DNA of 64,000 bases, from contig QJNS01000752.1 in the NCBI GenBank assembly GCA_004154925.1, positions 1-64,000 of the forward strand, in the 5' to 3' direction. The notes under the pieces are model-generated. The model searched no databases. It was not told where the DNA came from and worked only from the letters and a program-made list of their open reading frames with translations. The position numbers and the translations under genes are program-made. The stretch is from Monosporascus cannonballus. Its lineage: Eukaryota; Ascomycota; Sordariomycetes; Xylariales. Below are positions 2,328-56,289 of this stretch, piece after piece; position 1 is the first letter of the stretch, and each line of letters opens with the position of its first letter.

Positions 2328-2328
2328 C

Positions 2329-27101: not shown

Positions 27102-27177
27102 CGATCCTCCCCCTTTTAAAATCTTCGTTCCGAAAATTATAAGTACTCCTTCCTCCTTTATCCCACTATACTTCAAC

Positions 27178-27670: not shown

Positions 27671-27739
27671 ATTAGGCATCGCGGATACCGATTAGTCCGT
27701 TAACCACGTCGACTGGAACTTTATCCTTGGCGATATTAA

Positions 27740-30700
27740 CGTTACTGCTAATAAAAATTCTTTAATAGGCGCTAAACGCCAATAAAATTCTTAGCTAGCT
27801 TCCAGGTATTTTCGGAATCCGGGTACTTTTTCCACTTAATTAAGTACTAAATAAATCTATTTTATTTCCACATATCGAATATTTTCTTTATTTCGTATAT
27901 TCGTTCGTTTTTTATTTTTACATTATCCTATACCGTATACACCTTAATAATATCTATTATTAACTTACATAAAAAAATATAAAAAATTAAATAAAGTTTA
28001 ATTTTTAATAAAAATTCTAATTAATAATTATATTTTGAGATTTTCTTGGCGATTTTATATGGACCAATATATTTAAAATCGAGTTTTTTATTAAGTTGTT
28101 TTATTTAAATATTTTTTATAATAAAGAAAACCATTTCTCCCTTTTCGAAAATTAATCCTTTTAATTTTTTCTAGTTATAATACTTACTTATTTAATTTCG
28201 TACGAATTCCAATTTTATCTTTATTTTCTGATATAACTATCGTAATTATTTTAACGTAAAAATTATTTTAATATTAATTGGACTATTATCGCATACTTTC
28301 TTATAAACCTTTAAAATAAAACCAAAATTTGCGTTCGCAGGTATTATCTTAATACTTTCGTAATAGCTGGTATTATAAGTTAATTAAGTAATCGGTAACT
28401 TTTTAACCTAATTATTTTGTTCGTAATTAATATAATATCGTAAATAAATTTCTAAAATTTGATTTATTCGTTTTATTTATCCGTTTATTTATAATTTAAA
28501 TACGTTAAATAACTTATAATTTAAACCAATTTATATTATTATGCCTTATTAAAATTTAAATATAAATATCGATCCTTTATTTAATATAATTTCTATTAAT
28601 AATTCGTATATATTAAAAATATGTTTAAAGAAAATATATACCAGTTATTCGGCGTTTATATCCTTATAATATAATAAAAAATAAAAAAATTTCGTAAATC
28701 GATCGACGATTACGAAAATGCTATCGTAATATATTCCCGTAACTGGATTTTCTAATATAAAAAGCTTAATAATAAAATCGAATATAACTAAATATTATAA
28801 TTACTTTATAACTAATAATAACTATAATTTTCCGTATAGCTTATATCGTCGAATCTTTATTTTGGCGCAAATATTATATTATCGTATAACTTTTTATATT
28901 ATTAATTTTATTTTAAAAAAAAATATATATATTAAAATCGCTTTAAGGTTTTATAAATCCCTAAATATTTATATAATTAATATTTATATATTTTTCGTAT
29001 TAAATTCTTTCAATATTCTTCTAAAATTTATATTTTATTTATTTTTTGGTTTTCTGGAAAATTATTATTATACTGCTAAATTTTTTAATGCATATCGAAA
29101 GGTACTACCCGAATCGTCGTAATCTGTCGTAAACGTAAATATCCTTTTATAATAGTATTAAAAATTATATGGCTAACTTTAACCAATTTTTTTTCAAAGT
29201 TTAATTACCTGCTTAAAACATTTACTTTACCGTTCTTTAATTTTTTTTGTAAATAATAACAAAATCGAAATTCGCCAATTTTTTTACGTAATAAAATTAT
29301 CGTTTTATAAATTTCCTAATCGTAATAAATCGGGTAAAATTTTGATAATCCGTATAAACCTTAACCTAATACAAATTTCTTTTTAGGAAATGCTTAAACT
29401 TTCGAAATGCCATAATAATGGCCATAAATTTTTTATCTGGAATACCGTAATTAAATTCGGCTCCTTTTAATTTATACGAAAAAAATATAATAAAATATAA
29501 TTTACCTTAATTATTTCGTTATCCGATTATTACGTTTAACGTATAATCCGAAATATCGGTTTCTAATTTAATAAAACGGTTTAAATCATATATAATTAAT
29601 ATTAATTCGTTAATAATTACATCCTTAATATCTTAAAATATTTTTTCCGTATCTGGCGGCTATTTAAATTTTTTTTTTCGTAAAATTTATTAAGGATATA
29701 ATTATTCTGCTAAAATTTCAAATAAACTTCCTGTAATAATTAACGAATCCAAAAAATGCCTATATTTCCTTAACCGTATTTAGCATTTATTATTTTATAA
29801 CTACAACGATTTTCTTAAAATTTATCCTAATATATCCTAAAATAATAATATATTTTAAATATTTAACTTCCTATATATAAAATTAATTTTTTTTTGCGTT
29901 AACAAATAATTTTGCGTTTTATAAAACTTAAAGAACTTTATGAACGTATTTTACGTATATTTTTTTTATTTTCGAAAAAATAAAAATATTATCGAAATAA
30001 TAAACAACGAAAACATTAAAATATTTTTATAATACGTAATTAATTATTCGTTAAAAAGTTATTAATATATTTATAAGTTTTATTAATATAATTAAATACT
30101 TAAATAATTCATATTTTATTTTAAAAACTATTTTCTATTCGTATTCTTTTTTAATCTTAATAAAGTTATATTTATTTCTAAAATCAAATATTATAAATTA
30201 TTTAATTCCATAAAATCGGTTTTTTATTTTCGTAATCAAAAATAATAATATTCAATCTTTAATAATAATATCGTTTATTTATCGATAATTAACTATAAAT
30301 CGTAATTTCTTATTCTTTTTAAATACAAAAAATATAAGATATCCTATTAATAATTTCGAAAATCGAATTTATCCTTTTTATAGCCAATTTTCCAGGTATT
30401 CTCTGAAAATACGTAATTCGTTTTTATTAAAATTATAAATAAAGTAAAACTTTGTCGAAAATCCTTTTTTAAGGATTATTTCATAATCCTATTTATTATA
30501 TTCTAATAATTCTGTATCGAACTTTTTCTTAAAGAATTATTCGTATTTGTAATATTATAATAATATATTAATTAATTTTTTTTAATTTTTTAAGTTATTA
30601 TTTTTATTATTCTAAATTATTATTTAGTTATTTAAATTTCGCTTTAATGGTAATAATAATATATTATATTTTTCTTTAATACTTATTTTTTTAAATTTTG

Positions 30701-32990
30701 TTCCTTTAGGCGGTAAAATATTTATTATATTTTTATGTTTATATTCGTTACCATTATTAATCAAATATTAAGATTTTAATTTTTCCTTTTTTTTATTTAT
30801 TAATAAAAAATAAAATAAATTTTACCTAATTAGTTCCGCCGTTAATCAAAATTCCGTACTGGCATATCCATAATAATCTTAAGATTATATCGTAATTCCC
30901 GAATAAAACGATATCGAAATTAACCGTTTGGTATCGTCCTTAAATAAAAATTTCGAAATAATTAATTTTACGTATAATTTTTCCGTTATCGTAAATAAAT
31001 TCTTAACTTTCGGCATTTATCGTTATATAAGGTTCTAATTTATATTTTTATAATAATTTAAATTTATTAACTATATCCAGTATAATATAATTTCCGCCCA
31101 AAGTTCCGTAATCTATTATTACAATATATTAATACGTTCCGATTTATATATCCAAAATAATAAGGTTATTAACGTTTCCTATTATTGCGTTTAAAGCTTT
31201 TCTTAGGAATTCCTTTTAATTTCTTTAGGTTTTATTATTTTACGGCTTTTTTACAGATAATTTTCTTCTTTTAATTTTTATTCGAATCGGTCGAACCTTA
31301 TTTATATTTCTTCGTTTAACGCGTTAAATTATTATATTTATCGTTATTGTCGGCGTATTGGTCTTTCGAACTATATTAATTATTCTTAATTTTTTTACAA
31401 TTCCTTTTTTTATTAAGTAAATTACTTTTTTATATTTATAATTATATCCCATTATATATCGTTATAATTATTATTTTAAAAATCTTTTATAAATTAACGT
31501 ATTTTTTTTTTAATAATTTTTCTTTCGTAAAAATTTATAATAAATACTAATTAAAAATAAAAATCCGTAATAATTTTTTTAATAATACTTTTTTACCGTA
31601 CGTTAAATTAATTCCTTTTTTATTTAATAGTTATATTATTTATAATAACAAAAAAGGTTTTTTTACGGGTATTGCTTTTTTTAAGTTAATTTTTTATTTC
31701 GGCCCGTTATTGGACATTTTTTGGGGTTATAATTCGAAACTGTCGATATTATTATTTATTGTTTTTATTATGCCTGGTTCGATTTGGAAAATCGAATCCC
31801 TTATAATATATACAGGTAATTTGTATGTAAATATAATATTTTTATTTTTCGTAATCGGGGTATTTTCGTCGTCGACAGTATATAGCATATATTTTGTTAT
31901 ATCGATCGGGTATTCCGGAACAAATTTTTTTTGTCTAATTTTAATATTTGCGTAATTAGTTTTATAATGCTTTTTATTATATTTACGTTATTTATTAAAT
32001 TAGCTTTTTAGCTTTTCGCATTTTTCGTTAAATTTTTTGTCGTAATAATCCTTATTAAACTTTTTATTTAAAGCTTAATACGTATTTGGCTTAAATTATG
32101 TTAATAATTTTGTTATTTTTTCTTTAATTATTCCTAAATTATTTTTTTAATATAAGGATTTAATTATCTTATCGTAATTCTTTAGGTTTTTTATACTTAT
32201 AGGCCTTATATCCCATTTTGCCATAATTAAAGCATTTAATCTGGCTTTAATCTTATTTATAAGTAATACCGAATTTCATAAATCCTGGCGCCGTTTTATA
32301 AAAAATAAAAAGTGCATTTCGTTTTTTCTCCTGGTTAAACTTATATCCCGAACATAAAGCATATTTTTTTTTCTGTCGTTTTTTAAATTGTTAATTGTTA
32401 ATCTTAATTACTTTTACGATATACCGGTTTAAAGCAATTAATCGTTTGATTCGAATAATTTTATCTTTTATATTATCCTTTAATCCTTTATAAAATATAT
32501 CGATAAAGGTATTAGTTTTATTATTTTCTTATTCTGCTTTAACCACAAAATATTTAAAGATTACGGCGTATTTAGACGTAAATCTTTTTTATCGGAATTA
32601 TAAAAATTATTAAACCGTTAATCGTTTTTTATCCGGATTGCCGAAATTATCGCGTACTTTATTTTCGAAATTAATATAAATCGAAAAATTTTGTTAATAA
32701 AATTTTCCTTATTTATTTTTTTTATTTTTAAAAAGTTTTTCATAATAAGCTTAAATTAATTAGCCGCATTTCTTATTAGATATATTCCTATTACTAAAAC
32801 TATATCCGCTAAGTCGTTAAAATCTAAAAAGCGAAAGTAAATTCGTACCTAAGTTAAAAAAGTCTAAGGGTTACCTTTTTTATCGTAAGGTTCTGGTTTT
32901 TTCGGCTTTATACGAACGAAAAAAAATTAAATAAGCGTAACCTTAAATTATCGAACTTTTTTTTTAATTTCCGAATTTACGTTTAAAGTT
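27740..32990 (-). pseudogene. E1 gag-pol relic
   Basis: Read from 32990 downwards: gag with a zinc knuckle (IKCFNYGKMGYKAYK) at about 32.2 kb and a gag C-terminal segment near 31.87 kb (YTVDDENTPITKNKN), then protease/RT, the YFDN block, RNase H, integrase and chromodomain (KYPDSENTWKLAKN). The order is that of Ty3/gypsy chromodomain elements. No ORF longer than about 90 codons survives. Confidence 0.75.
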
Positions 32991-33084
32991 ATTAAATAAA
33001 GGTTTTCTAAATATTGGTCGATATTTTAACAATATTAAATATTGCTTACAGTTTGACGATACTATTAAATAAAAGCTTATAACG

Positions 33085-33463
33085 TATAACGGCTAAATTA
33101 ATTAACCAATTATTAAATCTAAGTTAACGGGTTTATGTTAATAAAAGTATTATAAAAATCTAAATAATAAATATAATAACTTATTATATTTCGTAATATT
33201 AAAAGTATTTTAAGTAATAAATTATTATTACAAATTAGTATTATTTAAATTATGGAAATAATAAACGTATATATCTGTACATTTTTCTATTAATTCGTCT
33301 TTGCTTAATAATAACTACTAAATAAAGTTTAATCGTGCCCAGTAAACCTCAATAATACTTAGTAATTATCGCTAAGCACTGGTTACGTAACTTAACCCAC
33401 TTAGGTCCTGTTTCCGGTTCAGAGCGACCGTTTCCGAGACCCGAAACGTATTAGGTTATAACA
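33085..33463 (-). repeat. E1 5' LTR (type a)
   Basis: It starts TATAACGG and ends GGTTATAACA with an intact CA terminus. The internal side is followed (minus strand) by the CGTTATAAGC start common to all five elements, probably containing the primer site. Confidence 0.85.
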
Positions 33464-34096: not shown

Positions 34097-34465
34097 TATA
34101 ACGGCCAGGCTAATTAACCAATTATTAAACCTAAGTCGACGGGTTTATGTTGGCAGGAATATCGTAAGAATCTAAATAATAAATATAATAACTTATTACG
34201 TTTCGTAATATTAAAAGTATTTTAAATAACGAATTGTTATTATAAACTAAAATTATCTAAATTATGGAAGTAATAAGCGTATATATTTTCATAAGTTAAT
34301 TAAATCGTCCTTGGATTTTGACGTTATTAAAGATCTAATATTATTAAATTCGGTTGGTTTTATATGGATTTATTTGGATCTTAATGCCAAAAAAGATCCA
34401 AATTACGTAATTCTTTTTTATGGGTCCGACCGTTTTCGTGGCCAATTTTGGGTTAAGTCGTAATA
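34097..34465 (-). repeat. E2 3' LTR (type c)
   Basis: It runs from TATAACGGCCAGG to GTCGTAATA and is the same length as 54065-54433. Its U3 half contains GTTGGTTTTATATGGATTTA, GGTCCGACCGTTTTCGTGGC, unlike types a, b and d. Confidence 0.85.
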
Positions 34466-34533: not shown

Positions 34534-35040
34534 ATAGCAGGTCGTATTATTAACCGTAAGCCTTATAATCGTCCTAATTAAAAAAAAAGCTTAGATTCCT
34601 TGGCTGCTTATATTATCAAATTTGGTTTTGAAATTATGCCGTATATGTTTTATTTCGAAAATAATACAAAATATCAAATAATTGAAAAATTTGTCGTTAT
34701 AGCGAATATATTAAGAATTGTTATCGTTACGATGGTTCTGGCGTTTTAATTGATTCCTTGCATCGTATTAGGGAAAAAAAAGATCATTTAAATTGCGAAA
34801 AAGCTATTATTAAAAAGACGTTTTTACGCCTTTAGTAAAAATTAAAAAAGGATTTGGTACGTAAATAACGTAATATCGATAAAACCATTAGTCGTTTTTT
34901 TTGTTTTCGTTATTAAAAGAAATTTTTTTACGCCAAAGGAATTAAAATTATTAATTACGGACTTTAGTTAATAGATAAGCTAAATAAATAAGAACGTACG
35001 GAGGCCGAGGTTCTGCTTTCCGTGCTATTCTTTGTTTCTT
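34534..35040 (+). pseudogene. E2 antisense zinc-cluster ORF relic
   Basis: The start codon is ATA in an ACCATAGCAGG context, a likely RIP product of ATG. The Cys positions read Tyr-X2-Tyr-X6-Tyr. After a one-base loss in an A/T run they read Tyr-X2-Tyr-X6-Tyr (YSEYIKNCYRY). A charged helical part follows, with SLHRIREKKDHLNCEKAIIK and LRLxxKLKKDLVRK. Same place, strand and spacing as the other four elements. Confidence 0.62.
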
Positions 35041-36037
35041 TTAATTGGTTTATTCCTGATAACCTTAACTGGGGAGTTTTTTTTAGTAATTCCGTTATCG
35101 CTGGTAAAAGCTTTTTAATAGGCGTTAGGCGCCAATAAGGTTTTTGGCGGGTTCCTAGGTATTTTCGGAGTTTAGGTGCTTTTTTTTATTTGATCAAGTA
35201 CTAAGTAAGTCCGTTTTGTTTCCGTATGTCGAATATCTTTTTTATTTCGTATATTCGTTTATTTTTTATTTCCATATTATCCTGTGCCGTATATATTTTG
35301 ATGGTATTTGTTATTAACTTAAGTAAAAAAATATAAAAAATTAAATAAAATTTAACTTTTGGTAAAAATTCTAATTAATAATTATTTTCTAAGATTTTCT
35401 TAGTGATTTTGTATAGACCGATATATTTGAAATCGAGTTTTTTTACTGGATTATTTTATTTAAATGTTTTTTGTAACGAGGAAAACCATTTTTCTTTTTT
35501 CGAAAGTTAATTCTTTTAACTTTTTCTAATTATAATATTTGTTTATCTAATTTCGTACGAATTTCAATTTTATCTTTATTTTTTAATATAGCTATTATAA
35601 TTATTTTAACGTAAAAATTATTTTAATATTAATTAAACTTTTATTACGTACTTTTTTATAAATCTTTAAAATAAAACCAAAATTTACGTTCACAGGTATT
35701 ATCTTAATATTTTCGTAATAGTTAATATTATAAGCTAACTAAACAATTAGTAACTTTTTAACCCAGTTATTTTATTCGTAATTAATATAATATTATAATT
35801 AAATTTTTAAGGTTTAATTTATTCGTTTTATTTGCCCGTTTATTTATAATCTAAACGTATTAAATAATTTATAATTTAAGCCGATTTATATTATTAAGCC
35901 TTACCAAAATTTAAATATAAATATCGATTTTTTGTTTAATATAATTTCCATTAATAATTTATATATGTTGAAAATATATTTAAAGAAAATTTATGTTAAT
36001 TATTCGGCATTTGTATTCTTATAATATGGTAAAAAAT

Positions 36038-36475
36038 TGTTATAACCTAGCAACCTTAGCTTCTTTAAACGGTCGGAAAGCTTAGGAACTCAGGCCCCGA
36101 CCATGCCAAAAGGGTTACGTAACTGGCTCAAAAAGACTTAATATACTTAATTAATATCGCAAAAATTTGGCGCCTTAAACCAATTAAGCCAGGAAATAGG
36201 CTTAAAGGGGCTTAAGGATATTTAAGGAAATTAACTTACCAAAAAATGTTTTAAATTCGCTTAAATAATTTAAACCAAAATAAAAATATATACGTTTATT
36301 ATTTTTATAACCTAAATAATATTAATTTATAATAATAATTCGTTATTTAAAATATTTTTAATATTACGAAACGTAATAAGTTAATTTATTTATTATTTAA
36401 ATTTTTACGATATTTTTATTAATATAAATCTGTTAACTTAAATTTAATAATTTATTAATTAATTTAGCGGTTATA
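36038..36475 (+). repeat. E3 5' LTR (type b)
   Basis: It starts TGTTATAACCTAGCAACCTT and ends GCGGTTATA. The conserved R/U5 half begins near the TATATACG box at about 36288. Same length as 42461-42898. Confidence 0.88.
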
Positions 36476-36599
36476 TATTATAAGTTTTTATTTAATAATA
36501 TCGTTAAATTTTAAAAATATTTAAAATTATTAAAATATTGATTAATACTTAAAAAAATTTTATTTAATAATTTTAAATACGAATTCGAAAATTAAAAAA

Positions 36600-39500
36600 A
36601 AATTTAATAATTTAAGGTTATATTTATTTAACCTTTTTTCGTTTATATATAGCCGAAAAAACCTAAACCTTATAATAAAAAAAATAACTTTTAAATCTTT
36701 TTAATTTAAATACGAATTTATTTTCGTTTTTTAAATTTTAACGACTTAACGGATATAATCCTAATAATAAAAATATACTTAATAAAAAATACGGCTAATT
36801 AATTTAGGTTTATTATAAAAAACTTTTTAAAAATAAAAAAAATAAATAAAGAAAATTTTATTAACGAAAATTTTTTAATTTATATTAATTTCGAAAATAA
36901 AATACGTAATAATTTCGGCAATCCGGATAAAAAACGGTTAACGGCTTAATAATTTTTACAATTCCGATAAAAAAACTTATATCCAAATATGCCGTAATTT
37001 TTAAAGGTTTTACGGTTAAAGCAAAATAAAAAAATAACGAAACCGATATCTTTATTAATATATTTTATAAAAAATTAAAAAATAATATAAAAAATAAAAT
37101 TATTCGGATCAAATAATTAGTTACCTTAAACCGGTATATTATAAAAATAATTAAGATTAATAATCGACAGTTTAAAAAATAATAAAAAAAGAAAAAATAA
37201 TATATTTTATGTTTAGGATATAAGTTTAATTAAGGGAAAAAACGAAACGTATTTCTTATTTTTTATGGAACGGCGTTAGGACTTATGGAGCTTAACGTTA
37301 CCCATAAACAAAATTAAAACCAAATTAAATATTTTAATTATAACAAAATAGGATATAAAGCTTATAAATATAAAAAACCTAAAACGTTACAATAAAATAA
37401 CTAAATCCCTATACCGGAAAAGCAATCCAAAAATAATTAAAAAAACGATAATAAAATTATTAATATAATTTAAACCAAATACGTATAAAACCTTAAACAA
37501 AAAATCTAATTAGGCTTATCTCGATAAAAAATTTGACGAAAAATGCAAAAAACTAAGAAACTGATTTAATAAATATTACGAACATAATAAAAGGTATTAT
37601 AAGAATAATTAAACAAATACCGGAATTAAATAAAAAAGGTTTATTCCGGAATACTTAATTAATATGGTAAAATATATGTTATACATTATCGACGACGAGA
37701 ATACCTTAATTACGAAAAATGAAAATAATATATTTACGTACGAATTACCCGTATATATTATAAGGGATTTAACTTTATAAATCGAACCGAATATAATAAA
37801 AACGACAAATAATAATATTAATAATTTCGAATCATAACTTTAAAAAATATTTAATAATTAGCCAAAACGGAAAATTAATCCGAAAAAAAATAATATCCGC
37901 AAAAAAACTTTTTTTATTATTATAAATAATATAATTATTAAACAAAAAAAATTAATTTAACGTAACGGTAAAAAAATATTATTAAAAAATTATTACGAAC
38001 TTTTATTTTTAATTAATATTTATTATAAATTCTTACGAAAAAAAATTATTAAAAAAATATATTAATTTACGGAAAATCTTTAAAATAATAATTATAATAA
38101 TATATAATAAGATATAATCGTAAATATAAAAAAGCAATTTACTTAATAGGAAAAAAAATTATAAAAAAATTAAAAATAATTAATACGATTTAAAAATTAA
38201 TATGCCGATAATAATAATAAATATAATAACTTAACGCATTAAACAAAGAAATATAAATAAAATTCAACCGATTCGAATAAAAATTAAAAAAAAAGTTATT
38301 TATAAAAAAGCCGTAAAGTAATAAAACTTAAAGAAATTAAAAAAAACTTTTAAAAAAGGTTTTAAACGTAATAATAAAAAATATTAATAATTTTATTACT
38401 TTAAATATACAAATTAAAACATATTAATATACCGTAATAATAAATTACGGAATTTTGGGCGGAAATTTTATTATATTAAATATAATTAATAAATTTAAAT
38501 TATTATAAAAACATAAGTTAAAAGTTTATATAACGATAAATACCGAAAATTAGGAATTCGTTTACAATAACGGAAAAATTATACGTAAAATTAATTACTT
38601 TAAGATTTTTATTTAAAAATAATATTAAACGGTTAATTTCGATATTGTTTTATTCGGAAATTACGATATAATCTTAAGATTATTATAAATATATTAATAT
38701 GGAATTTTCATTAATAACGGAATTAACCAAATAAAATTTATTTTATTTTTTATTAATAAATAAACGAAGAACTTAAAATCTTAATATTTAATCGATAATA
38801 GCAACAAATATAAATATAAAGATATAATAAATATCTTATTATCCAAAAAAATAAAACGTAAAAAAAACGAGTATTAAAAAAATATAACGTATTATTATTA
38901 TTATTAAAACGAAATTTAAGTAATTAAATAATAATTTGGAATAATAAATATAATAATTTAAGGAATTAGAAAATTTAATTAATATATTATTATAATATTA
39001 CAGATACGAATAGCTTTTTAAAAAGGAATTCGATATAATATTATTAAAATATAAGGAATAAAATTACAAAATAAGTTTTAAAAAAAACTTTTCGATAAAG
39101 TTTTACCTTATTTATAATTTTAATAAAAATAAATTACGTACTTTTAAAAAATACCTGGAATATCGGTTATAAAAGAAATAAATTTAATTTTCGAAATTAT
39201 TAGCAAAATACCTTATATTTTTCGTATTTAAAAAAAATAAAAACTTATAACTTATAATTAATTACCAATAATTAAACGATATTATTATTAAAATTAAATA
39301 TTATTATTTTTTATTACAGAAATAAAAAACCGATTTTACGGAATTAAATAATTTATAATATTTAATTTTAAAAATAAATATAACCTTATTAAGATTAAAA
39401 AAGAATACGAATAAAAAGTAATTTTTAAAATAAAATACGGATTATTTAAATATTTAATTATATTAATAAAATTTATAAACATATTAATAACTTTTTAACG

Positions 39501-41800
39501 AATAATTAATTACGTATTACGAAAATATTTTAATATTTTTATCGTTTGTTTTTTCGACGATATTCTTATTTTTTTAAAAACGGAAAAAGCATACATAAAA
39601 TACGTTCATAAAATTCTTTAAGCTTTATAAAACGTAAAATTACTTATTAACGTAAAAAAAAATTAATTTTATATATAAAAAATAAAATATTTAGGATATA
39701 TTATTATTTTGAAATATATTAAAATAAATCCTAAAAAGTTTATTATAATTATAAAATAATAAACGTTAATTATAATTAAAAAAGTATAAGTATTTTTTTG
39801 ATTCGTTAATTATCATAAAAAATTTATTTAAAATTTTAATAAAATAATTATATTTTTAATAAATCTTATAAAAAATATTTAAATAAATATTAAATACGGA
39901 AAAAATATTTTAAGATATTAAAAATATAATTATTAGCGAATTAATATTAATTATATACGATTTAACCTACCTTATTAAATTAAAAACCAATATTTTAAAT
40001 TACGCGTTAAACATAATAATCAGATAATAAAATAATTAAAGTTAATTATACCCTATTATATTTTTTTCGTATAAATTAAAAAAAACCGAATTTAATTATG
40101 GTATTTTAAATAAAAAGTTTATAATTATTATTATGGTATTTCGGGAATTTAGGCATTTTTTAAAGGGAAACTTATATTAAGTTAAGGTTTATATGGATTA
40201 TTAAAATTTTACTTAATTTATTACGACCAAAAAACTTATAAGACGATAATTAAGATATATAAAAAAATTAACAAATTTCGATTTTGTTATTATTTAAAAA
40301 AAATCAGAAAATAGTAAAATAAATGCTTTAAGTAAATAATTAAACTTTGAAGAAATATTAATTAAAATTAATTATATAATTTTTGATATTATTTCCAAAA
40401 AATATTTATGCTTATAACACATTATAATAATTTGGGTAATACTTTACGATATGTATTAGAAAATTTAATAATATAATAATAATTTCTTAAAAAACCAGAA
40501 AACGAATAAAATATAGATTTTAAAAAAATATCGAAAAAACTTAATACGAAAAATATACGAATATTAATTATACGGATATTTAAAAATTTATAAAACCTTA
40601 AAACGAATTAAATAAATATATTACTTTCCTAAAATAAAGTTTATAATTTAAAAAATTATACGGTAATATAATATTTATACTAAAACGAAAATATTATAAT
40701 ATAAATCTTACGGAAAATTATAACTATTATTAATTATAAAACGATTATAAAATTTAATTATTATGGACTTTATTACCAAATTTTCTTTATCCGAGAATTT
40801 AACGATAAAAATATATTATAATAATATATTTATAATCGTTAACCAATTTATAAAGTTTTTTTATTTTTTACCTTATTATAAAAATATAAACGTCAAATAA
40901 TTAATATATATTTTTTTCAAAAAAGTTTTTAATATATATAAATTATTAATAAAAATAATATTAAATAAAAAATTAACGTTTATATCCAAATTTTAATAAG
41001 GCCTAATAACATAAATTGGCCTAAATTATAAATTATTTAATACTTTTAAACCTTAAACGGATAAATAAACGGAATAATTAAACCAAATATTAAAAATATA
41101 TTTACGATATTATATTAATTACGAACAAAATAACTGGGTTAAAAAATTACCTATTATTTAATTAATTTATAATATTACTTATTACAATAATATCAAAATT
41201 ATTCCAGTAAACGCCAATTTCGGATTTATTTTAAAAATTTATAAAAAAATACGTAACGATAATTTAATTAATATTAAAGTAATCCTTATATTAAAATAAT
41301 TAAAATAATTATATTAAAAAATAAAAATAAAATTAAAGTTCGTACGAAAACAAATAAATAAATATTATAACGAAAAATAGTTAAAAAAATTAATTTTCGA
41401 AAAAAGGAAAATGGTTTACCTTATTATCAAAAATATTTAAACAAAAAGGCCTAATAAAAAATTCGATTTTAAATATATTAATCCATACAAAATTACTAAA
41501 AAAATTTCCGAAAATAATTACTAATTAAAACTTTTACCAAAAGTTAAATTCCATCTAATATTTCATATATCCTTATTCGAATTAATAACAAATATGATCA
41601 AAATACGTACGGCATAAAACGAAATAAAAATAAAAAACAAAATAATATATAAAATAAAAAAAATTCTTAACATACGGAAATAAAACGGATTTACCTAATA
41701 CCTAATCAAATAAAAAAAATATTTAAATTCCAAAAACACCTAAAAACCAGCCAAAAATCTTATTAACGCTTAACGTCTATTAAAAAATTTTTACCAATAA
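36600..41800 (+). pseudogene. E3 gag-pol relic
   Basis: Gag is followed by the knuckle reading YFNYNKIGYKAYKY, where every Cys and His of CX2CX4HX4C is Tyr. RT shows ITEIKNRFYGIK, KYNLIKIKKEYE and FFDDILIFLKTEK, with the two catalytic Asp kept. RNase H shows FREFRHFLKGN and NFDFVII. Integrase shows MDFITKFSLSENLT, a QTE-like motif and YINYEQNNWVKKLP. The chromodomain has EILNIRK, KYLNSKNT and PAKNL. Dozens of stops make it non-functional. Confidence 0.8.
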
Positions 41801-41879
41801 CAATAAACACGTTTAAATTAATAACTAATTAATTAATAATTGGAATATCGGGCTAATTAGCCATAACCTATATTAACGT

Positions 41880-42374
41880 AACGGCCATAATAACAGCCTC
41901 CAATTATTATTATTCTTACTTTAAACGTTCAAATTCTTCCATTATTTCCGCACTTTAAATACCGTAATAAAATATCTTAATTCCCCGTTAACGAAAAAAC
42001 TTCTTTTATTTTCGTAAATAACTTAAATAATTAAGTAATTCGTTAATATATTATTACAATTCGGATAAACGTTAATAAGCTTTAAGCAGTTTTTCTTCGG
42101 CAAAACGTTTTTAAAAGTTTAACTAATCCTTTTTAATTATTAACTAACGGTATTCGACCTCGAAAAAACTAAAAAGATTACAAAGGCCCCCGTAAACCGT
42201 ACAAAAAAAACATTTCCCCGAATTATAATAAATTTTACAAATTTTGTTCGTAAACTTACAGCGAAAACAAAAAAATCCAAAAACATAATTAAACCGAGAC
42301 GGTCGATATATTTTAAAAAAAATAAAAACGTTAATACATTTATAAAACCGAAATTTTTTAATACGACCAAATAT
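41880..42374 (-). pseudogene. E3 antisense zinc-cluster ORF, best preserved copy
   Basis: It lies opposite to gag-pol, between the chromodomain and the 3' LTR. The first part is open (to about 42144); the start is probably ATA at 42374, a changed ATG before FGRIKKFR. All six cysteines remain: C-FR-C-KFTNKI-C-KIYYNSGK-C-FF-C-TVYGGL-C, i.e. CX2CX6CX8CX2CX6C, which fits the Zn2Cys6 fungal cluster consensus. Beyond an internal stop, a Lys/Glu/Leu-rich helix-like stretch follows (RFAEEKLLKAY, ELLNYLSYLRK). RIP on the other strand spares Cys codons on this one, so retention alone does not prove selection. Role unknown; DNA binding or regulation of the element is a guess. Confidence 0.7.
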
Positions 42375-42460
42375 ATTAAATATGAAAAAAAAGTTACTTA
42401 CCAAGGTTAACAAACGGACGAATTAATCTTTAAGGACAAAAATCCTGGAAAAAAAAATCA

Positions 42461-42898
42461 TATTATAACCTAACAACCTTAGCTTCTTTAAACGGTTAAA
42501 AAACTTAGGAGTTCAGGCCCCGACTATACCAAAAAAGTCACGTAACTGGCTCAAAAAAACTTAATGTACTTAATTAATATCGCAAGGACTTAGCGCCTTA
42601 AACTAATTAAGCCAGAAGATAAGCTTAAAAGGGCTTAAGGACATTTAAGGAAACCAACTTACCAAAGGATATTTTGAACCAACTTAAATAACTTAAGCCA
42701 AAATAAGAATATATATACTTATTATTTCCATAACCTAAATAGCATCAGCTTGCAATAATAATTCGTTACCCAAAATATTTTTAACATTACGAAACATAAC
42801 AAATTACTATATCTATTATTTAAATTCCTACGATACTCCTGCTAATATAAACCCGTCGACTTAGGTTTAATAGTTGGTTAATTAGCCTAACCGTTACA
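42461..42898 (+). repeat. E3 3' LTR (type b)
   Basis: It starts TATTATAACC after a polypurine tract (GGAAAAAAAAATCA) and ends CCGTTACA with its CA end intact. Confidence 0.88.
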
Positions 42899-43443
42899 AA
42901 AATAAGAAAATTTCGTAAATCGGTTAACGATTACGAAACTGTTATTGTGGTATATTTCCGTAATTAGATTTTTTAATATAGGAAACTTAATAATAAAGTC
43001 GAATATAATTAAATATTATGGTTGCTTTGCGATTAATAATAGCTGTAATTTTCCGTATGGCTTGTGTCGTCGAGTTTTTGCTTTGGCCCAAATATTGTAT
43101 TGCCGTATGATTTTTTGTACCGTTAATTTCATTTTAAGAAAAGAATATGTATGTTAAAATTGTTTTAAGGTTTTGTGGATCCCTAGATATTTATGTAATT
43201 AATGTTCGTATATTTTTTGTACTAAATCCTTTTGGTATTTTTCTGGAATTTATATTTTATTCGTTTTTTGGTTTTTTGAAAGATTATCGTTATATTGTTA
43301 AATTTTTTAATATATATCGAAAGATATTGCCCAAATTGTTATAATCTGTCATAAGCGTAAATATTTTTTTATAGTAATATCAAAAATCGTATAATTAATT
43401 TTGACCAATTTCTTTTTAAGGTTTGGTTACTTGCTTAAAGCGT

Positions 43444-43647
43444 TTATTTTGCCGTTTTTGATTTTTTTTTATAGATAATAACGAAATCGAAATTCGCCAA
43501 TTTTTCCGCATAACGAAATTGTCGTCCTGTAAGTTTTTTGGTCGTAATAAATCGGGTAAGATTTTGATAATCCGTATAAACCTTAACCTGGTACAAGCTT
43601 TCTTTTAAAAAGTGCCTAAATTTTCGAAATACCATAATAATAACCAT
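43444..43647 (-). pseudogene. E2 RNase H open fragment
   Basis: A 67-codon open stretch of gypsy RNase H: MVFRKFRHFLKES, QVKVYTDYQNLTRFITTKKL, TGRQFRYAEKLANFDFVII. The catalytic-region YTD and the DFVIIY end of the domain are visible. Flanking pol is broken; a 3' integrase region lies to the left and RT to the right. Confidence 0.8.
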
Positions 43648-46009
43648 AAATTCCTTATTTGGAATACCGTAATTAAATTCGATTCCTTTTAATTTGTACG
43701 AAAAAAAATGTAATAAGGTGCAATTTGCCTTAATTATTTTGTTATCCGATTATTACGTTTAACGCGTAATCCGAAATATCGGTTTTTAGTTTAACGGGGT
43801 GGGTTAAATCGTATATAATTAATATTAATTCGTTAATAATTATATCCTTAATATTTTAAAATGTTTTTTCCGTATTTGGCGTTTATTTAAATTTATTCTT
43901 TTCGTATAATTTAATAGGGGTATAGTTATTTTGTTAAAATTTCGAATAAATTTCCTGTAATAATTAATAAATCCAAAAAATGCTTATACCTTTTTAATTA
44001 TGTTTAACGTTTATTATTCTATAATTGTAGCGATTTTCTTAAAGTTTATCTTAATATGTCCGAAAGTAATAATATGTTTTAAATATTTTATTTCTTGTAT
44101 ATAAAATTAATTTTTTTTACGTTAATAAATAATTTTGCGTTTTATAAAAATGTTATCGAAATAATAAACGACAAAAATATCGAAATATTTTCGTAATACG
44201 TAATTAATTATTTACTAAAAAGTTATTAATACGTTCGTAAATCCTATTAATATAATCAAATATTTAAATAATCCGTATTTTGTTTTAAAGATTATTTTTT
44301 ATTTATATTTCTTTTAATTTTAATAAAGTTATATCTATTTTTAAAATCGAATATTATAAATTATTTGGTTTTATAAAATCGGTTTTTTATTTCCATAATT
44401 AAGGGTAATAATATTTAATCCTTAATAATAACGTTATTTAATTATCGGTAATTAATTATAAATCGTAATTTTTTATTTTTTTTAGATACGAAAAATATAA
44501 GGTATTTTGCTGGTAATTTCGAAAGTTAAATTTATTTTTTCTGTAACCGATTTTCCAGGTATTCTTTAAAAGTACGTAATTCGTTTTTATTAAGGTTATA
44601 AATAAGGTAAAACTTTGTCGAAAATCCTTTTTTAAAAATTATTTTATAATTTTATTTATTATATTCTGGTAATTTCGTATCGAGTTTTTTCTTAAAGAGT
44701 TGTTCGTATTTATAATATTATAATAATATATCAATTAAACTTTTTAATTTTTTAGGCTGTTATTTTTATTATTCCAAATCTTTATTTAATTGTTTAAGTT
44801 TCGCTTTAATAATAATAATAATGCGTCGTATGTTTTTTTAATATTTATTTTTTTTAGATTTTATTCCTTTAGGTAATAAAATATTTGCCGTATTTTTGTA
44901 TTTATATTTATCGCCATTATCGATCGAATATTAACATTTTAATTTTTTCTTTTTTTATTTGTTAATAAGGAATAAAATAAATTCTATTTGGCTAATTCCG
45001 CCGTTAATTAAAATTCCGTATTAACGTATTTATGGCAATCCTAAGAGTATATTGTAATTCCTAAATAAAACGATATCGAAATTAACCGTTTGGTATTATT
45101 TTTAAATAAAAATCTCGAAATAATTAATTTTGCGTATAATTTTTCCGTTATTATAGGCAAATTCCTGATTTTCGGTATTCGTCGTTATATAAGGTTTTAA
45201 TTTATATCTTTATGGTAATTTAAGCTTATTGATTATATCCGATATAATATAATTTCTGTTTAGAGCTCCGTAATCCATTATTACGGTATATTAATACGTT
45301 TTGATTTGTATATCCAAAGTAATAAGGTTGTTAATATTTCTTATTATCGCGTTTAAAGCCTTTTTTAAGAGTTCTCTTTAATTTCTTTGAGTTTCGTTAT
45401 TTTGCGGCTTTTTTATAAATAATTTTTTTAACTTTTGTTCGAATTGGTCGAACCTTATTGGTGTTTTTTCGTTTAACGCGTTAAGTTGCTATATTTATCG
45501 TTATTATCGGCATATTGTTCTTTCGAATTATATTAATTATTTTTGATTTTCTTATATTTTTTTATCAAATAAATTGTTTTTTTTATATTGGCGATTATAT
45601 CCCATTGTACGTTATTAAAGTTATTATTTTAGAGATTTCCTGTAAATTAACGTATTTGTTTTAATAATTTTTTTTTGTAAGGATTTATAATAAATACCAA
45701 TTAAAAATGAAAGTCCGTAATAGCTTTTTAATATTTCTTTTTACCGTACGTTAAATTAACTTTTTTTCCGTTTAATAATTATATTATCCATAACAATAAA
45801 AAGGGTTTTCCTGCGGGCATTACTTTCCTTCGGGCTAACTTTTTATTTCGGCCAGCTGCTGGATATTTTTTGGGGTTATGGTTCGAAATTGGTCGATATT
45901 ATTATTCGTTATTTTTATTATGCCTGGTTCGATTTGGAAAATCGAATCCCTTATAATATATGTAAGTAATTCGTACGTAAATATGTTGTTTTTATTTTTC
46001 GTAATCGGG

Positions 46010-46447
46010 TATAACGGCTAGGCTAATTAACCAACTATTAAACTTAAGTCGACGGGTTTATGTTAGCAGGAATATCGTAGGAATCTAAGTAATGGATATA
46101 GTAACTTATTACGTCTTATAATGCTAAGGGTATTTTGGGTAACGAATTATTATTGCAAACTGATATTATTTAGGTTATAGAAATAATAAACGTATATATT
46201 TTTATTTTAACTTAAACTGTTTAAGCTGGCTTAAAATATCCTTTAGTAAATTAATTTTTTTAAATGCCTTTAAGCCCCCTTAAACTTATTTCCTAATTTA
46301 ATTAACTTAAAGCGCTAAATCCTTACGACATTGATTAAGTACATTAAGTTTTTTTAAGCCAATTACGTGATCCTTTTAATATGGTCGAGGCCTAAGCTTT
46401 TAAGCTTTCCGACCGTTTGGAAAAGCTAAGGCTATTAGGTTATAATA
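46010..46447 (-). repeat. E4 3' LTR (type b)
   Basis: It runs from TATAACGGCTAGG to GGTTATAATA, followed (minus strand upstream) by the polypurine tract seen here as TCTTTTTTTTTCC. Same length as 52389-52826. Confidence 0.87.
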
Positions 46448-46538
46448 CGATCTTTTTTTTTCCAGGATCTTTATCCTTAAAGATTAATTTGTCCGTTTGT
46501 TCACCTTAGTAAGTAACTTTTCCTTCTTTATATTTAAC

Positions 46539-47030
46539 ATATTTGGTCGTATTAAAAAATCTCGGTTTTGTAAGCGTACTAATATTTTCGTTTTTTTAAA
46601 ATATATCGACCGTTTTAGTTTTATCATATTTTTGGACGTTTTTTGTTTTCGCTGCAAATCTGCGAATAAAACTTATAAAGTTTACCATAATTTGGGAAAA
46701 TGTTTTTTTTATACGGCTTACGGAAGGCCTTATAATTTTTTTGGTCCCTTTAAGGTTAAATACTATTAATTAGTGGCTAAAAAGGATCGGCTAAATTCTT
46801 AGGAACGTTTTGCCGAAAAAAAACTGTTTAAAACCTATTAACGTTTATCCGAATTGCAGCAATATATTAACGAATTACTTGATTATTTAAATTATTTACA
46901 AAAATAAAAAAAGTTTTTTCGCTAATAAGGAATTAAGATATTTTGTTACGGTATTTAAGGTACGGAGGCGATAAAAAAATTAGAACGTTTAAAGTAAAAA
47001 TAATAATAATTAAAGGCCGCCGTTACGGCT
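46539..47030 (+). pseudogene. E4 antisense zinc-cluster ORF relic
   Basis: The start is ATA before FGRIKKSRFCKR. The cluster is C-FR-C-KSANKT-Y-KVYHNLGK-C-FF-Y-TAYGRP-Y, identical in spacing to E3 with three Cys now Tyr. After a stop at about 46770 the reading continues LVAKKDRLNS, ERFAEKKLFKTY, RLSELQQYINELLDYLNYL, a convincing amphipathic, coiled-coil-like stretch. It is antisense to gag-pol, between chromodomain and 3' LTR. Confidence 0.68.
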
Positions 47031-47129
47031 ATTACGTTAATATAAATTACGGCTAATTAGCCCAATATTCCGATTATTAATTAATCGGTTATTAATTTAA
47101 ACGCGCCCGTTATTATTAATAAAACTTTT

Positions 47130-50100
47130 TTAATAAATGCTAAGCGTTAATAAGATTTTTAAATAACTTTTAGGTATTTTCGGAATTTGAATATTTTTTT
47201 TACTTGATTAAATATTAAGTAAATCCATTTTGTTTCGGCATATCGAAATTTTTCTCTATTTTATATATTATTTCGTCTTTTATTTTTATTTCGTTTTATG
47301 CCGTACATATTTTAATTCTATTTGTTATTAATTCAAATAAAAAAATATAAAAAATTAGATAGAGTTTAACTTTTAATAAAAATTCTAATTAGTAATTATT
47401 TTCGGAAATCCTTTTGGTAATTTTATAGAAATTAATATATTTAAAATCAAATTTTTTGCTAGGCCTTTTTATTTAAATATTTTTAATAATAAGGTAAACC
47501 ATTTCCCCCTTTTTAAAAATTAATTTTTTTAACCATTTTTCGTTATAATATTTATTTATTTATTTTCGTACGAATTTTAATTTTATTTTTATTTTTTAAT
47601 ATAATTATCTTAATTATTTTAACATAAAAATTGCCTTAATATTAATTAAACCGTTATTACGTATTTCTTTATAAACTTTTGGAATAAATTCAAAATTAAC
47701 ATTTATTAAAATAATTTTGATATTATCGTAATAAGTAATATTATAAACTAATTAAGCGATAAATAATTTTTTAACCTAATTATTTTGTTCGTAATTAATA
47801 TAATATTACAAATATATTTTTAATATTTGGTTTAATCGTTTTATTTATTTATCCGTTTAAAGTTTAAAAACATTAAATAATTTATAATTTAAGCCAATTT
47901 ATGCTATTAGGCTTTACCAAAATTTGGATACGAACGTTAACCTTTTATTTAATATTATTTTTATTAATAACCCATATATATTAAAAATATATTTAAAAAA
48001 AATATGTATTAATTTTTCGGCGTTTATATTTTTATAATAAAATAAAAAATAAAAAATTTTTATAAATCGGTTAACGATTATAAATATGTTATTATTATGT
48101 ATTTTTATTATTAGATTTTCGAATAAAGGAAATTTGATAATAAAATTTATAATAATCGAATTTTATAATTATTCCGTAATTAATAACGGTTATAATTTTC
48201 CGTAAAATTTATATCGTAATATTTTTGTCCTAACATAAATATCATATTACCGTATAACTTTTTGAACCATAAATTTTATTTTAGGAAAATAATATATTCG
48301 TTTAATTCGTTTTAAGGTTTTGTAAATTCCTAAATATTTATATAATTAATATTCGTATATTTTTCGTATTAGGTTTTATCAATATTCCTTTAAAACCTGT
48401 ATTTTATTTATTTTTTAATTTTTTAAAAAATTATTGTTATATTATTAAATTTTCTAATATATATCGCAAAATATGGCCCAAATTATTATAATTTATCGTA
48501 AGCGTAAATATTCTTTTGCAATAATATTAAAAATTATATGGTTAATTTTAACCAATTTTTCTTTAAAGTCTAATTATTTACTTAAAGTATTTATTTTGCC
48601 GTTTTTTAATTTTTTTTATAAATAATAACGAAATCGAAATTTGCTAATTTTTTTATATATCTTAATTATTATTTTATAAGTTCCTTAATTATAATAAATT
48701 AAGTAAAATTTTAATAATTCGTATAAATTTTAATTTAATATAAGTTTCCTTTTAAAAAATACCTAAATTCCCGAAATGCCATAATAATAATTATAAGTTT
48801 TTGATTTAAAATACCGTAATTAAATTCGGCTTTTTTAATTTATACGAAAAAAATATAATAAAATATAATTTACCTTAATTATTTTATTATCCGATTATTG
48901 CAGTTAACGCGTAATCCAAAATATCGGTTTTTAATTTAACGGGGCAGTTTAAATTATATATAATAAATATTAATTTATTAATAATTATATCCTTAATATC
49001 TTAAAATGCTTTTTCCGTATTTAACGTTTATTTAAATTTATTTTTTTATAAAATTTATTAAAAATATAATTATTTTGTTAAAACTTTAAATAAATTTTTT
49101 ATAATAATTAACGAATCCAAAAAATATTTATATTTTTTTAACCGTAATTAACGTTTATTATTTTAAAATTGCAATAATTTTCTTAAAATTTATTTTAATA
49201 TATCTCAAAATATTAATATATTTTAAATATTTTATTTTTTATATATGGAATTTACTTTTTTTTACGTTAATAAATAATTTTATGTTTTATAAAACTTAAA
49301 AAATCTTATAAACGTATTTTATATATATTTTTTCCGTTTTTAAAAAAATAAGAATATCGTTAAAATAATAAATAATTAATTATTCGTTAAAATATTATTA
49401 ATACGTTTATAAATTTTATTAATATAATTAAATATTTAAATAATCCGTATTTTATTTTAAAAATTACTTTTTATTCGTATTCTTTTTTAATCTTAATAAG
49501 GTTATATTTATTTTTAAAATTAAATATTATAAATTATTTAATTTTATAAAATCGGTTTTTTATTTTTATAATGAAAAATAATAATATTTAATTTTTAATA
49601 ATTAATTATAAATGGTAATTTCTTATTTTTTTTAAATACGAAAAATATAAAATATTCAGCTGGTAATTTCGAAAATTAAATTTATTTTTTTATAACCAAT
49701 TTTCCAGATATTTTTTAAAAATACGTAATTCGTTTCCGTTAAAATTATAAATAAAGTAAAACTTTGTCGAAAATCCTTTTTTAAAAATTATTTTATAATT
49801 TTATTTACTATATTCTAATAATTTTATGTCGAATTCCTTTTTGAAAAACTATTTATATTTATAATATTATAATAATATATTAATTAAATTTTCTAATTTC
49901 TTAAATTATTATTTTTATTATTCCAAATCGTTATTTAATTATTTAAATTTCGCTTTAATAATAATAATAATATACCGTATTTTTATTAATATTTGTTTTT
50001 TTGCGTTTTATTTTTTTAAGTAATAAGATATTTATTATATCCTTATATTTATATTCGTCGCCATTATTAATCAAATATTAAGATTTTAATTTTTTCGTTT

Positions 50101-52320
50101 ATTTATTAATAAAAAATAAAGCGAATTTTATTTGGCCAATTTTGCTATTAATTAAAATTCCGTATTAATATATTTATAATAATCTTAAAATTATATTGTA
50201 ATTTCGGAATAAAACGATATCGAAATTAATTATTTAATATTTTCCTTAAATAAAAATCTTAAAATAATTAATTTCGCATATAAATTTTCCGTTATCGTAA
50301 GTAAATTCCTGATTTTCGGTATTCGTTATTATATAAGATTTTAATTTATATTTCTATAATAATTTAAATTTATTAATTATATCTAATATAATATTATTTC
50401 CGCTTAAAATTCCATAATTTACTATTACGGTATATCAATATATTCCGATTTATATATCTAAAGTAATAAAATTATTAACGTTTTTTATTATTATATTTTA
50501 ATTTTTTTTTGGAAATTCCTTTTAATTTTTTTAAATTTTATTACCTTACGGCTTTTTTATAAATAATTTTTTCTTTTAATTTTTATTTAAATCGGTTAAA
50601 CTTTATTTATATTTTTTCGTTTAACGTATTAAATTATTATATTTATCGTTATTATTAGCATATTATTTTTTTAAATTATATTAATTATTTTTAACTTTTT
50701 TATAATTTTTTTCTTTATTAAATAAATTATTTTTTTATATTTATAATTATATTTTATTATACGTTATTATAGCTATTATTTTATAATTTTTCCGTAAATT
50801 AACGTATTATTTTAATAACTTTTTTATAAGGATTTATAATAAATACTAATTAAAAATAAAGGTCCGTAATAATTTTTTAATAATATTTTTTTTTATTATA
50901 TATTAAATTAATTTTTTTTCCATTTAATAATTATATTATTTATAATAATAAAAAAAGTTTTTTTATAGGTATTATTTTTTTCGGGTTAATTTTCCGTTTC
51001 GGCTAATTATTAATTATTTTTTGGAATTATAATTCGAAACTGTCGATATTATTATTTATTATTTTTATTATACCCGGTTCGATTTATAAAATCGTATCCT
51101 TTATAATATATATAGGTAATTCGTACGTAAATATATTATTTTTATTTTTTATAATTAAGGTATTCTTATCGTCGACAATATATGGCGTATATTTTATTAT
51201 ATCGATAAAGTCTTCCGGAATAAATTTTTTTTGTTTAATCTTAATATTTGTATAATTATTTTTATAATACCTTTTATTATATTCGTAATATTTATCAAAT
51301 TAATTTCTTAGTTTTTCGTATTTTTTATTAAATTTCTTATCGGAATAAACTTAATTGGATTTTTTGCTTAAGGCTTAATACGTACTTAGTTTAAATTATG
51401 TTTATAATTTTATTATCGTTTCCTTAATTATTTTTAAATTGTTTTTCCGGTATAGGAATTTAATTATTATATCGTAATTTCTTGGGTTTCTTATATTTAT
51501 AAGTTTTATATTTTATTTTGCCGCCGTTAAAATATTTAATTTAGCTTTAATCTTATTTATAGGTAACGCCGAGCTCCATAGGTCCTAACGCCGTTCCATA
51601 AAAAATAAAAGGTACGTTTCGTTTTTTCTCCTGGTTAAATTTATATTTTAAATATAAAGCATTTTATTTTTTTTTTCTTATCGTTTTTCAAATTATTAAT
51701 TATTAATCTTAATTATTTTTACGATATACCGGTTTAATATAATTAATTATTCGATCCGAATAATTTTATTTTTTATATTATTTTTTAATTTTTTATAAAA
51801 TATATTAATAAAAATATCGGTTTCGTTATTTCCTTATTTTATCTTAACCGTAAAACCTTTAAAAATTACGGCATACTTAAACGTAAATCCTTTTTATTAA
51901 AATTATAAAAACTGTTAAACCGTTAATTATTTTTTATCCGGATTACCAAAATTATCGTATATTTTATTTTTAAAATTAATATAAATTAAAAATATTTCGT
52001 TAATAAAATCTTTTTTATTTATTTTTCTAATTTTTTAAAAAGTTTTCATAATAAGCTTAAATTAATTAGCCGTATTTTTTATTAAATATACTTTTATTAT
52101 TAAAACTATATTTGCTGGGTTATTAAAATTTAAAAAACGAAAATAAATTCGTACTTAAATTAAACAAAATTTAACAAATATTTTTTATTATAAAGTTCTG
52201 GTTTTTTCGATTTTATATAAACGAAAAAAAAATAAATACGTATAACCTTAAGTTATTAACCTTTTTTTCCAATTTCCGAATTTATGCTTAAAATTATTAA
52301 AAAAAGTTTTTTAAATATTG
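47130..52320 (-). pseudogene. E4 gag-pol relic
   Basis: The domain order matches E1 and E3 but with heavier decay and two small deletions. Assignment rests on the RNase H stretch near 48.6-48.8 kb and on base-by-base resemblance to E1 over the full length. No useful ORF survives. Confidence 0.7.
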
Positions 52321-52388
52321 GTTAATATTTTAATAATATTAAATATTATTTAAAATTTAATAATATTATTAAATAAAAACTTATAACA

Positions 52389-52826
52389 TATAATAACTAA
52401 ATTAATTAACTAATTATTAAATTTAAGTTAACAAATTTATATTAATAAAAATATCGTAAGAATTTAAATAATAAATATAATAACTTATTATGTTTTATAA
52501 TATTAAAAGAAATTTAAATAATAAATTATTATTATAAATTAATATTATTTAAATTATAGAATTAATAAGCGTATATATTTTTATTTTGGGTTAAATTATT
52601 TAAATTAATTAAATATATTTTTTAATAAATTAATTTTTTTAAATGCTTTTAAGCCTTTTTAAGTTTATTTCCTAGCTTAATTAATTTAAGACGCCAAATC
52701 CTTACGATATTAATTAAATATATTAAGTTTTTTTAAGCTAGTTACGTAACCCTTTTGGCATGGTTGGGGCCTAAGCTCCTAAATTTTCCGACCGTTTAAA
52801 GAAATTAAGGTTACTAGGTTATAATA
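52389..52826 (-). repeat. E4 5' LTR (type b)
   Basis: It starts TATAATAACT and ends GGTTATAATA. It is strongly RIP-changed, and the conserved half aligns with E1-E3 and E5. Confidence 0.85.
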
Positions 52827-54064: not shown

Positions 54065-54433
54065 TATAACGGCCAGGCCAATTAATTAATTATTAAACCT
54101 AAGTCGACTAATTTATATTAATAAAAATATCGTGGAAATTTAAATAATAAATATAATAATTTGTTATATTTCGTAATACCTAAGGTATTTTAAGTAACGA
54201 ATTATTATTATAAGCCGAAATTTTTTAAATTATGGAAATAATAAGCGTATATATTTTTATAAGTTAATTAAATCGTCCTTAAATCTTAACGTTATTAAAG
54301 ATCTAATGTTATTAAATTCGGTTGGTTCTGTATAGATTTTTTTAGATCTTAATGCCAAAAGAAATCCAAATTACATAACTTTTTTTTGTAGGTCCGACCG
54401 TTTTCGTGGCCGATCTTAGGTTAGGTCGTAACA
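54065..54433 (-). repeat. E2 5' LTR (type c)
   Basis: It starts TATAACGGCCAGGCC and ends GGTCGTAACA with an intact CA end. Its length equals 34097-34465. Confidence 0.86.
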
Positions 54434-55749: not shown

Positions 55750-56164
55750 TGTTACGACTTAATAAGTTACGGCTTCCAGAAATAATCGTAACAGGAAAGG
55801 CCAAAAAAAACTATGTGGATCAAGTTACGTAATGGATTACTAACTTACTAGTAATAAGCCAGTAAGCCGGATTACCAACTTACTGATGGTAAGCCAATAA
55901 GCCGGATTATTAATTTATTGGTAATAAGCCAGCTAAAGGAAAAAAATATATATGTTTATTAATTCTATGGTTTAAATAATTTTAGCTTATAATATTTATT
56001 AATACCAAATATTTGCACTAAAATAATTTGTTACCTAAGGCACTTTTGGCATTACGAAACATAATACGTTACTATATTTATTACTTAGATTTTTACGATA
56101 TTCCTATTAATATAAACTTATTAACTTAAGGTTTAATAATTAATTAAACCGCCTAGCTATTATA
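55750..56164 (+). repeat. E5 5' LTR (type d)
   Basis: It starts TGTTACGACTTAATAAGTTA and ends GCTATTATA. Its U3 contains three short tandem-like units (AACTTACTGGTAATAAGCCA type). Same length as 62092-62506. Confidence 0.86.
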
Positions 56165-56289
56165 TATTATAAGTTTTTATGTAATAATATCGTTAAACTT
56201 TAAACAATATTTAATATTGTCAAAATATCGACCAATATTTAAAAAACTCTTATTTAACAACTTTAAGTTCGAATTCGGGAACTAAAAAA

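Follow-up and report, generated by a model that had tools for sequence, protein, structure and literature searches.

Gypsy retrotransposons in a 64,000-nucleotide stretch of the Monosporascus cannonballus genome (contig QJNS01000752.1, positions 1 to 64,000; hereafter the window) almost certainly carry a real protein gene antisense to gag-pol. Its product very probably has a Zn2Cys6-type fold. Overall, the best explanation is an antisense-expressed zinc-cluster protein that modulates the transcription of the element family encoding it; we put the probability of this reading at roughly 55%. An earlier note on the window had proposed an ancestral antisense coding gene. That proposal is upheld by a codon-position bias independent of repeat-induced point mutation (RIP), by profile homology between element types and by uninterrupted relatives that occur in other fungi and mostly have the six-Cys array.

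An antisense reading with a six-cysteine array

Five gypsy elements, E1 to E5, each contain an antisense coding region (aORF) of ~155–175 codons. As the earlier note had stated, the aORF lies opposite to gag-pol, between the chromodomain and the 3′ long terminal repeat (LTR). Placement by tblastn and LTR pairing showed this for all five elements, with aORF and pol convergent. Every window copy is broken by stops or frameshifts, which rules out an intact aORF among them. In E3, the antisense reading at 42374–41880 (minus strand) includes an exact CX2CX6CX8CX2CX6C array, CFRCKFTNKICKIYYNSGKCFFCTVYGGLC, at 42269–42180 (minus strand). We scanned all six frames of the full window for Cys or Tyr at the spacing 2-6-8-2-6. 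There were three matches, in E3, E4 and E5 only. The array has six Cys in E3, three Cys and three Tyr in E4 (46644–46733), and two Cys and four Tyr in E5 (61920–61831).

The spacing had been described as common to all five elements. This is so for E3, E4 and E5, where the array is kept within a single frame with C, or Y as the RIP product, at each position. In E1 and E2 it is split by a 1-nt shift, between positions 2 and 3 and between positions 3 and 4, respectively. The split makes no difference of principle: in relatives of the E1 and E2 types (L060; L062, L063 and L064) a single frame spans the array, apart from stops.

The Tyr residues had been interpreted as former Cys, and the pattern of substitution fits this. 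The context targeted by RIP is CA, and Cys codons (TGY) place CA on the opposite strand. In E1, E3, E4 and E5 the TA/AT ratio is 1.09–1.12, against 0.80 in positions 1–15000, and (CA+TG)/(AC+GT) is 0.43–0.51, against 1.05. We compared the six Cys codons of a reference copy, L015, with the same codons in 26 other E3-type copies. The 156 cells contained 77 C, 78 Y, one stop and nothing else. Hence, the Tyr readings are compatible with decayed Cys. The genome copies that we looked at are RIP-damaged; E3 and L015, the two listed copies with all six Cys, both carry stops behind the array.

The arrangement recurs elsewhere in the genome. A DNA search gave at least 40 matches (40 scored out of 286 candidates; 40/40 matched). 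Protein searches with the E3, E5 and E1 readings gave at least 150 matches each, from 446, 1137 and 1018 candidates, respectively. An integrase/chromodomain region convergent with the aORF was present at 48/48 distinct loci of E3 and E5 type, across a gap of 93–339 bp (median 124). These loci were drawn from 68, with 10 duplicates and 10 short loci excluded, and included no E1-type locus from outside the window.

A chance reading, or an artefact of RIP, would be in keeping with window copies that are full of stops. The number of arrays speaks against it. Three were observed in 26001–64000, while the mean under a Markov-1 model was 0.02 and 0/200 simulations gave three.

Selection on the antisense frame

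RIP yields transitions only and no transversions. Hence, we counted alignment columns variable by transversion at each antisense codon position. Across 27 E3-type copies, with each class required in at least two copies, there were 15/6/33 such columns at positions 1/2/3, of 160 each (p 7e-6). One further copy, L030, had no blastn match and was left out (27/28). The flanks of the same copies had no bias, with 7/4/6 of 50 on the LTR side and 5/6/3 of 80 on the pol side.

Part of the 27 copies came from a protein search, so we ran the test again on the 18 copies that the DNA search had found. Counting any variant, there were 18/8/32 columns of 160 (p 2e-4), with 10/6/8 of 50 (p 0.55) in the LTR-side flank and 10/16/10 of 80 (p 0.31) in the pol-side flank. 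The stricter count, at least two copies per class, gave 8/1/11 of 160 (p 0.016), and 3/2/2 of 50 and 2/5/3 of 80 in the flanks. For 11 E1/E2-type sequences the any-variant count was 44/21/68 of 123 (p 3.5e-9); these are protein-search finds plus two window copies, and the result may carry the bias of that search. Two further sets say little about selection: 20 E5-type copies (0/0/5 of 150 each), whose differences are almost all transitions, and the four nearest E1-type copies (1/4/4 of 120, p 0.36). We conclude that the aORF frame was under selection, because transversions, outside the reach of RIP, are most frequent at the third codon position of the antisense frame.

Uninterrupted relatives in other fungi

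The element types share a homologous antisense product. Profile comparison with hhalign gave E 6e-19 for E3-type against E1/E2-type and E 1.7e-18 for E1/E2-type against E5-type. Taken alone, E3-type against E5-type was a weak match (probability 63, E 7e-5). A protein search with a single decayed copy found no relatives, and scans of collections of viral contigs and genome contigs gave no matches. A profile of nine E1/E2-type readings returned eight proteins at E<=0.1. A profile built from five of those eight then returned 163 uninterrupted relatives at E<=0.01, of which the best 120 were listed. Genera represented include Fusarium, Pyricularia, Colletotrichum, Cordyceps, Metarhizium, Apiospora, Gaeumannomyces, Staphylotrichum and Chaetomium; many of the genera belong to the Sordariomycetes.

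The six-Cys array was present in 102/121 relatives, 13 with exactly 2-6-8-2-6 and 89 with similar spacing, in most cases longer by one or two residues. The loose pattern occurred in 0/24,200 shuffled sequences. Several of the 19 relatives without an array are fragments lacking the module, and others have Tyr for Cys. We aligned 82 relatives, hand-picked from the 121, of which 79 have the array; the near-invariant Cys columns of this alignment are partly due to that choice. A separate alignment holds 12 modules, likewise hand-picked. Against it, the E3-type, E5-type and E1/E2-type profiles scored E 1.1e-24, 4.9e-13 and 4e-25, respectively. The median length of the 79 is 206 residues, and the family has the signature RLRxQK / RGxxSxEEL. 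At least six distinct annotated genes (MCOR02_...) come from a single Pyricularia isolate, a multiplicity consistent with a repeated element, though no proof of one.

Matched back to the window, the 121 relatives identified the aORF places of E1 (111), E2 (4), E3 (1) and E5 (10). None of them matched at E4 or outside the aORF places, and the reversed proteins had no matches in the window. Together with the array count and the transversion bias, these matches refute a chance or RIP origin.

Alternatively, the functional product might be antisense RNA, acting by RNA interference or by transcriptional interference with pol, with the protein secondary. In the available text of two studies, silencing may draw on antisense transcripts from LTR elements (PMC7264820) and gypsy-derived small RNAs matter in Botrytis (PMC8365987). 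The codon-position bias and the conservation of amino acids across fungi demonstrate that the protein itself is selected, and an RNA product, already weakened by them, is very improbable.

A predicted zinc-cluster fold

Zn2Cys6 domains (PF00172) have six Cys at about CX2CX6CX5-12CX2CX6-8C. The E3 array has exactly such spacing, and the 102 relatives above have spacing of this type. A model of the full protein (predicted local distance difference test score 85.6) has a single 69-residue helix at 81–149, after the module. The predicted module has the GAL4-like fold of two helix-strand halves. All 12 listed structural matches to the module model are to zinc-cluster proteins (LAC9, LEU3, PPR1, Pho7, GAL4, HAP1, AlcR and PUT3), at low Z. 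For seven of the 12, the root-mean-square deviation is 1.5–1.7 over 31–33 of 38 residues. Loop 1 has a single R/K-rich column (57/82), and the net charge of the module averages +2.0 (79 proteins).

A check against the Pfam Zn_clus model, proposed in the earlier note, fell just short: 17/82 relatives matched at E<=1, and none of the 82 reached the cut-off. The best match (E 0.0007) scored 20.1 bits and the gathering score is 21, so filing the family under PF00172 was dropped. In a ranking of the 25 most frequent among 149 families with weak matches, Zn_clus came second, behind PHM7_cyt (20/82). For 18 relatives with full Pfam listings, every match was below its cut-off. NCBIfam models matched three of five relatives, far below cut-off (the top match, to a transaldolase model, scored 29 of 550 bits), and the other two not at all. 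One relative, P0047, has a precomputed PF13094 domain. Searches of solved structures with a longer query or with profiles returned no zinc-cluster protein, and the best match was Centromere protein O (E 0.015).

Alignments with LEU3 suggested that the two zinc-cluster halves may be in swapped order relative to the canonical domain. We compared halves separately with the Pfam profile; two of five first halves matched the profile's first half, and none of five second halves matched anything. The predicted module aligns colinearly with Zn2Cys6 structures. For the 18 fully listed relatives, none of the Pfam matches is to a bZIP domain, and the predicted fold is zinc-cluster-like. The Zn2Cys6-type label stands on fold prediction and, weakly, on sequence matches.

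Zn2Cys6 proteins are a typical class of host regulator in fungi, and the predicted fold agrees with theirs. The aORF product might, therefore, be a host transcription factor that was captured and continues to act on genes of the host. The family's own helix and tail signature and its Zn_clus scores below cut-off make this improbable. For the same reasons, any host capture would be old.

A possible regulator of the element's own transcription

We propose that the aORF would be a third gene of chromodomain gypsy elements, tail-to-tail with pol and reading from just inside the 3′ LTR. Its product, of about 200 residues, would comprise a short basic N-terminus, the six-Cys zinc-cluster module, a long and probably dimerising helix and an acidic tail. 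The distance from the aORF start to the inner edge of the 3′ LTR is 79, 71, 78, 92 and 80 bp in E1 to E5, respectively (edges as aligned). Hence, any promoter should lie in or adjoining the 3′ LTR, and expression would most likely be from an antisense promoter within that LTR.

In dimeric GAL4-class DNA-binding proteins the parts follow in nearly the same order: basic N-terminus, zinc cluster, a short linker and then a long helix. It is probable that the aORF product is likewise a DNA-binding dimer. Such a dimer would tune transcription of its own element family, like an antisense-encoded LTR regulator. As the aORF also begins close to the inner edge of the 3′ LTR, the economical reading is a self-regulator of the element, the role that HBZ has in human T-cell leukaemia virus type 1 (HTLV-1). 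In the available text of PMC10186651, HBZ is an antisense gene under 3′ LTR control with a transcription-factor-like product that lowers 5′ LTR expression. The parallel is an analogy only: HBZ is retroviral and of the bZIP type, whereas the aORF belongs to a retrotransposon and encodes a zinc-cluster-like module and helix. That the protein acts on its element's own LTR we consider slightly short of an even chance. Together, the data suggest that the elements bring their own control protein along.

The aORF product resembles the GAL4/HAP1/PPR1 class in its six-Cys spacing, its predicted fold and its order of cluster, linker and helix. It differs in scoring below the Pfam cut-off and in its own signature. 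Many GAL4-class factors also carry a large regulatory region, for which a family of ~200 residues is too short.

A zinc-cluster-like protein could instead serve integration-site choice or chromatin, together with the chromodomain integrase, or nuclear entry, or relief from silencing. The aORF adjoins chromodomain integrases, and protein architecture cannot separate transcription from targeting. Moreover, the available text of PMC7264820 describes some plant antisense products as nuclear and reports that accessory roles have been proposed. Antisense placement off the 3′ LTR, however, would uncouple the aORF from the expression of gag-pol, as would be expected of a regulator more than of a structural component of the particle. 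Roles other than LTR transcription are thus unlikely, and tuning of the family's own transcription remains our preferred reading.

A wider scenario is more tentative still. A fungal gypsy lineage may carry its own GAL4-class factor, expressed from the antisense promoter of the 3′ LTR and recognising LTRs of the family. It would be a counterpart of HBZ with a different fold, old and distributed over many genera, and a possible source or descendant of host zinc-cluster regulators.

Relation to known antisense genes

The earlier note knew of no description of such a gene. In the literature searched we found none of a zinc-cluster antisense retrotransposon gene, nor of the breadth of the family or selection on the aORF; the 2011 study of brtn is known to us through citing papers. 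Those papers do describe a gene at the same place. According to the available text of PMC7264820 and PMC8365987, brtn of Boty (Botrytis, Sclerotinia; Zhao et al. 2011) is an antisense gene between pol and the 3′ LTR. Compared by the descriptions in these papers and PMC4227169, brtn shares its place and orientation in a fungal chromodomain gypsy element with the aORF. One form is named brtn-106 (PMC4227169), whereas the median length here is 206 residues. The available text of PMC7264820, PMC8365987, PMC4227169 and PMC5987419 does not term brtn a zinc cluster; that of PMC5987419 mentions a Monilinia transcript resembling BRTN.

The aORF-3R genes of plant gypsy elements (Grande gene23, RIRE2, Retand and PvRetro13) also have the same place and orientation, and the Grande product is nuclear. 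They differ in their hosts, and no zinc cluster is reported for them in the available text (PMC7264820). Extra ORFs in Pyrenophora were set aside as a parallel, being located in hAT elements according to the available text of PMC3538342. An antisense gene at this place is known from brtn; the zinc-cluster nature, family breadth and selection would be additions.

Both plants and Botrytis are known to have antisense genes in LTR retrotransposons, and the available text of PMC7264820 calls their origin and function unknown. A recognisable DNA-binding-type fold and many uninterrupted relatives make the question of function testable by protein–DNA binding. Unnamed "hypothetical protein" entries in fungal genomes would also become explicable as probable transposon genes.

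Organisation of the elements

Integrase and chromodomain regions were placed by tblastn with pieces of relative L029, from which the domain names are taken. L029 has Pfam RNase H, Tf2-1-like SH3 and Chromo domains above cut-off. The elements are Ty3/gypsy chromodomain LTR retrotransposons: their paired LTRs enclose RNase H, an integrase C-terminus and a chromodomain. The five LTR pairs are 78–85% identical and delimit E1 (26707–33461), E2 (34097–54431), E3 (36031–42884), E4 (46024–52826) and E5 (55754–62499).

In E3, the LTRs are at 36031–36461 and 42452–42884 (both plus strand). The integrase C-terminus and chromodomain lie at 41162–41737 (plus), and the aORF, from start to conserved tail, at 41850–42374 (minus). 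E5 has the same orientation: 5′ LTR at 55754–56157, integrase C-terminus and chromodomain at 60847–61423 (plus), aORF at 61548–62016 (minus), with a frameshift behind the array, and 3′ LTR at 62096–62499 (plus).

The remaining elements have pol on the minus strand and the aORF on the plus strand. For E1, the 3′ LTR (26707–27099, minus) is followed by the aORF (27178–27670), the integrase C-terminus and chromodomain (27808–28383) and the 5′ LTR (33067–33461). The corresponding E4 positions are 46024–46447 (minus), 46539–47063, 47176–47751 and 52403–52826. Those of E2 are 34097–34463 (minus), 34534–35040, 35174–35738 and 54065–54431. The reverse transcriptase/RNase H part of E2, at 43358–44106, is separated from its integrase by E3.

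The five elements had been called nested. E3 and E4, each with both LTRs, do interrupt E2 (~6.7 kb of its own sequence), E3 in the opposite and E4 in the same orientation; E1 and E5 lie outside, alongside E2.

Between element types, identity is 28–38% for the aORF and 64–69% for integrase/chromodomain, in a comparison without the E3–E4 pair, two non-significant short aORF alignments and the E2 integrase. The accessory protein encoded by the aORF thus evolves faster than pol.

Near 26 kb (24000–28000) a sharp border separates a gene-rich part (GC 0.41–0.67) from the AT-rich RIP part (GC down to 0.13), and an isolated LTR-like stretch is present at 24434–24648. Elsewhere in the genome, two aORF-bearing elements adjoin each other on the contig of L029 (C16). 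Here, a second Cys/Tyr array, of E2 type, occurs on the minus strand at ~2124–2213 of L029, ~2 kb from its E3-type aORF (4237–4698, plus). Finally, L065 (C18:216500-217200) is a divergent copy in which the conserved C-terminal part is stop-free and the Cys part is in a different frame.
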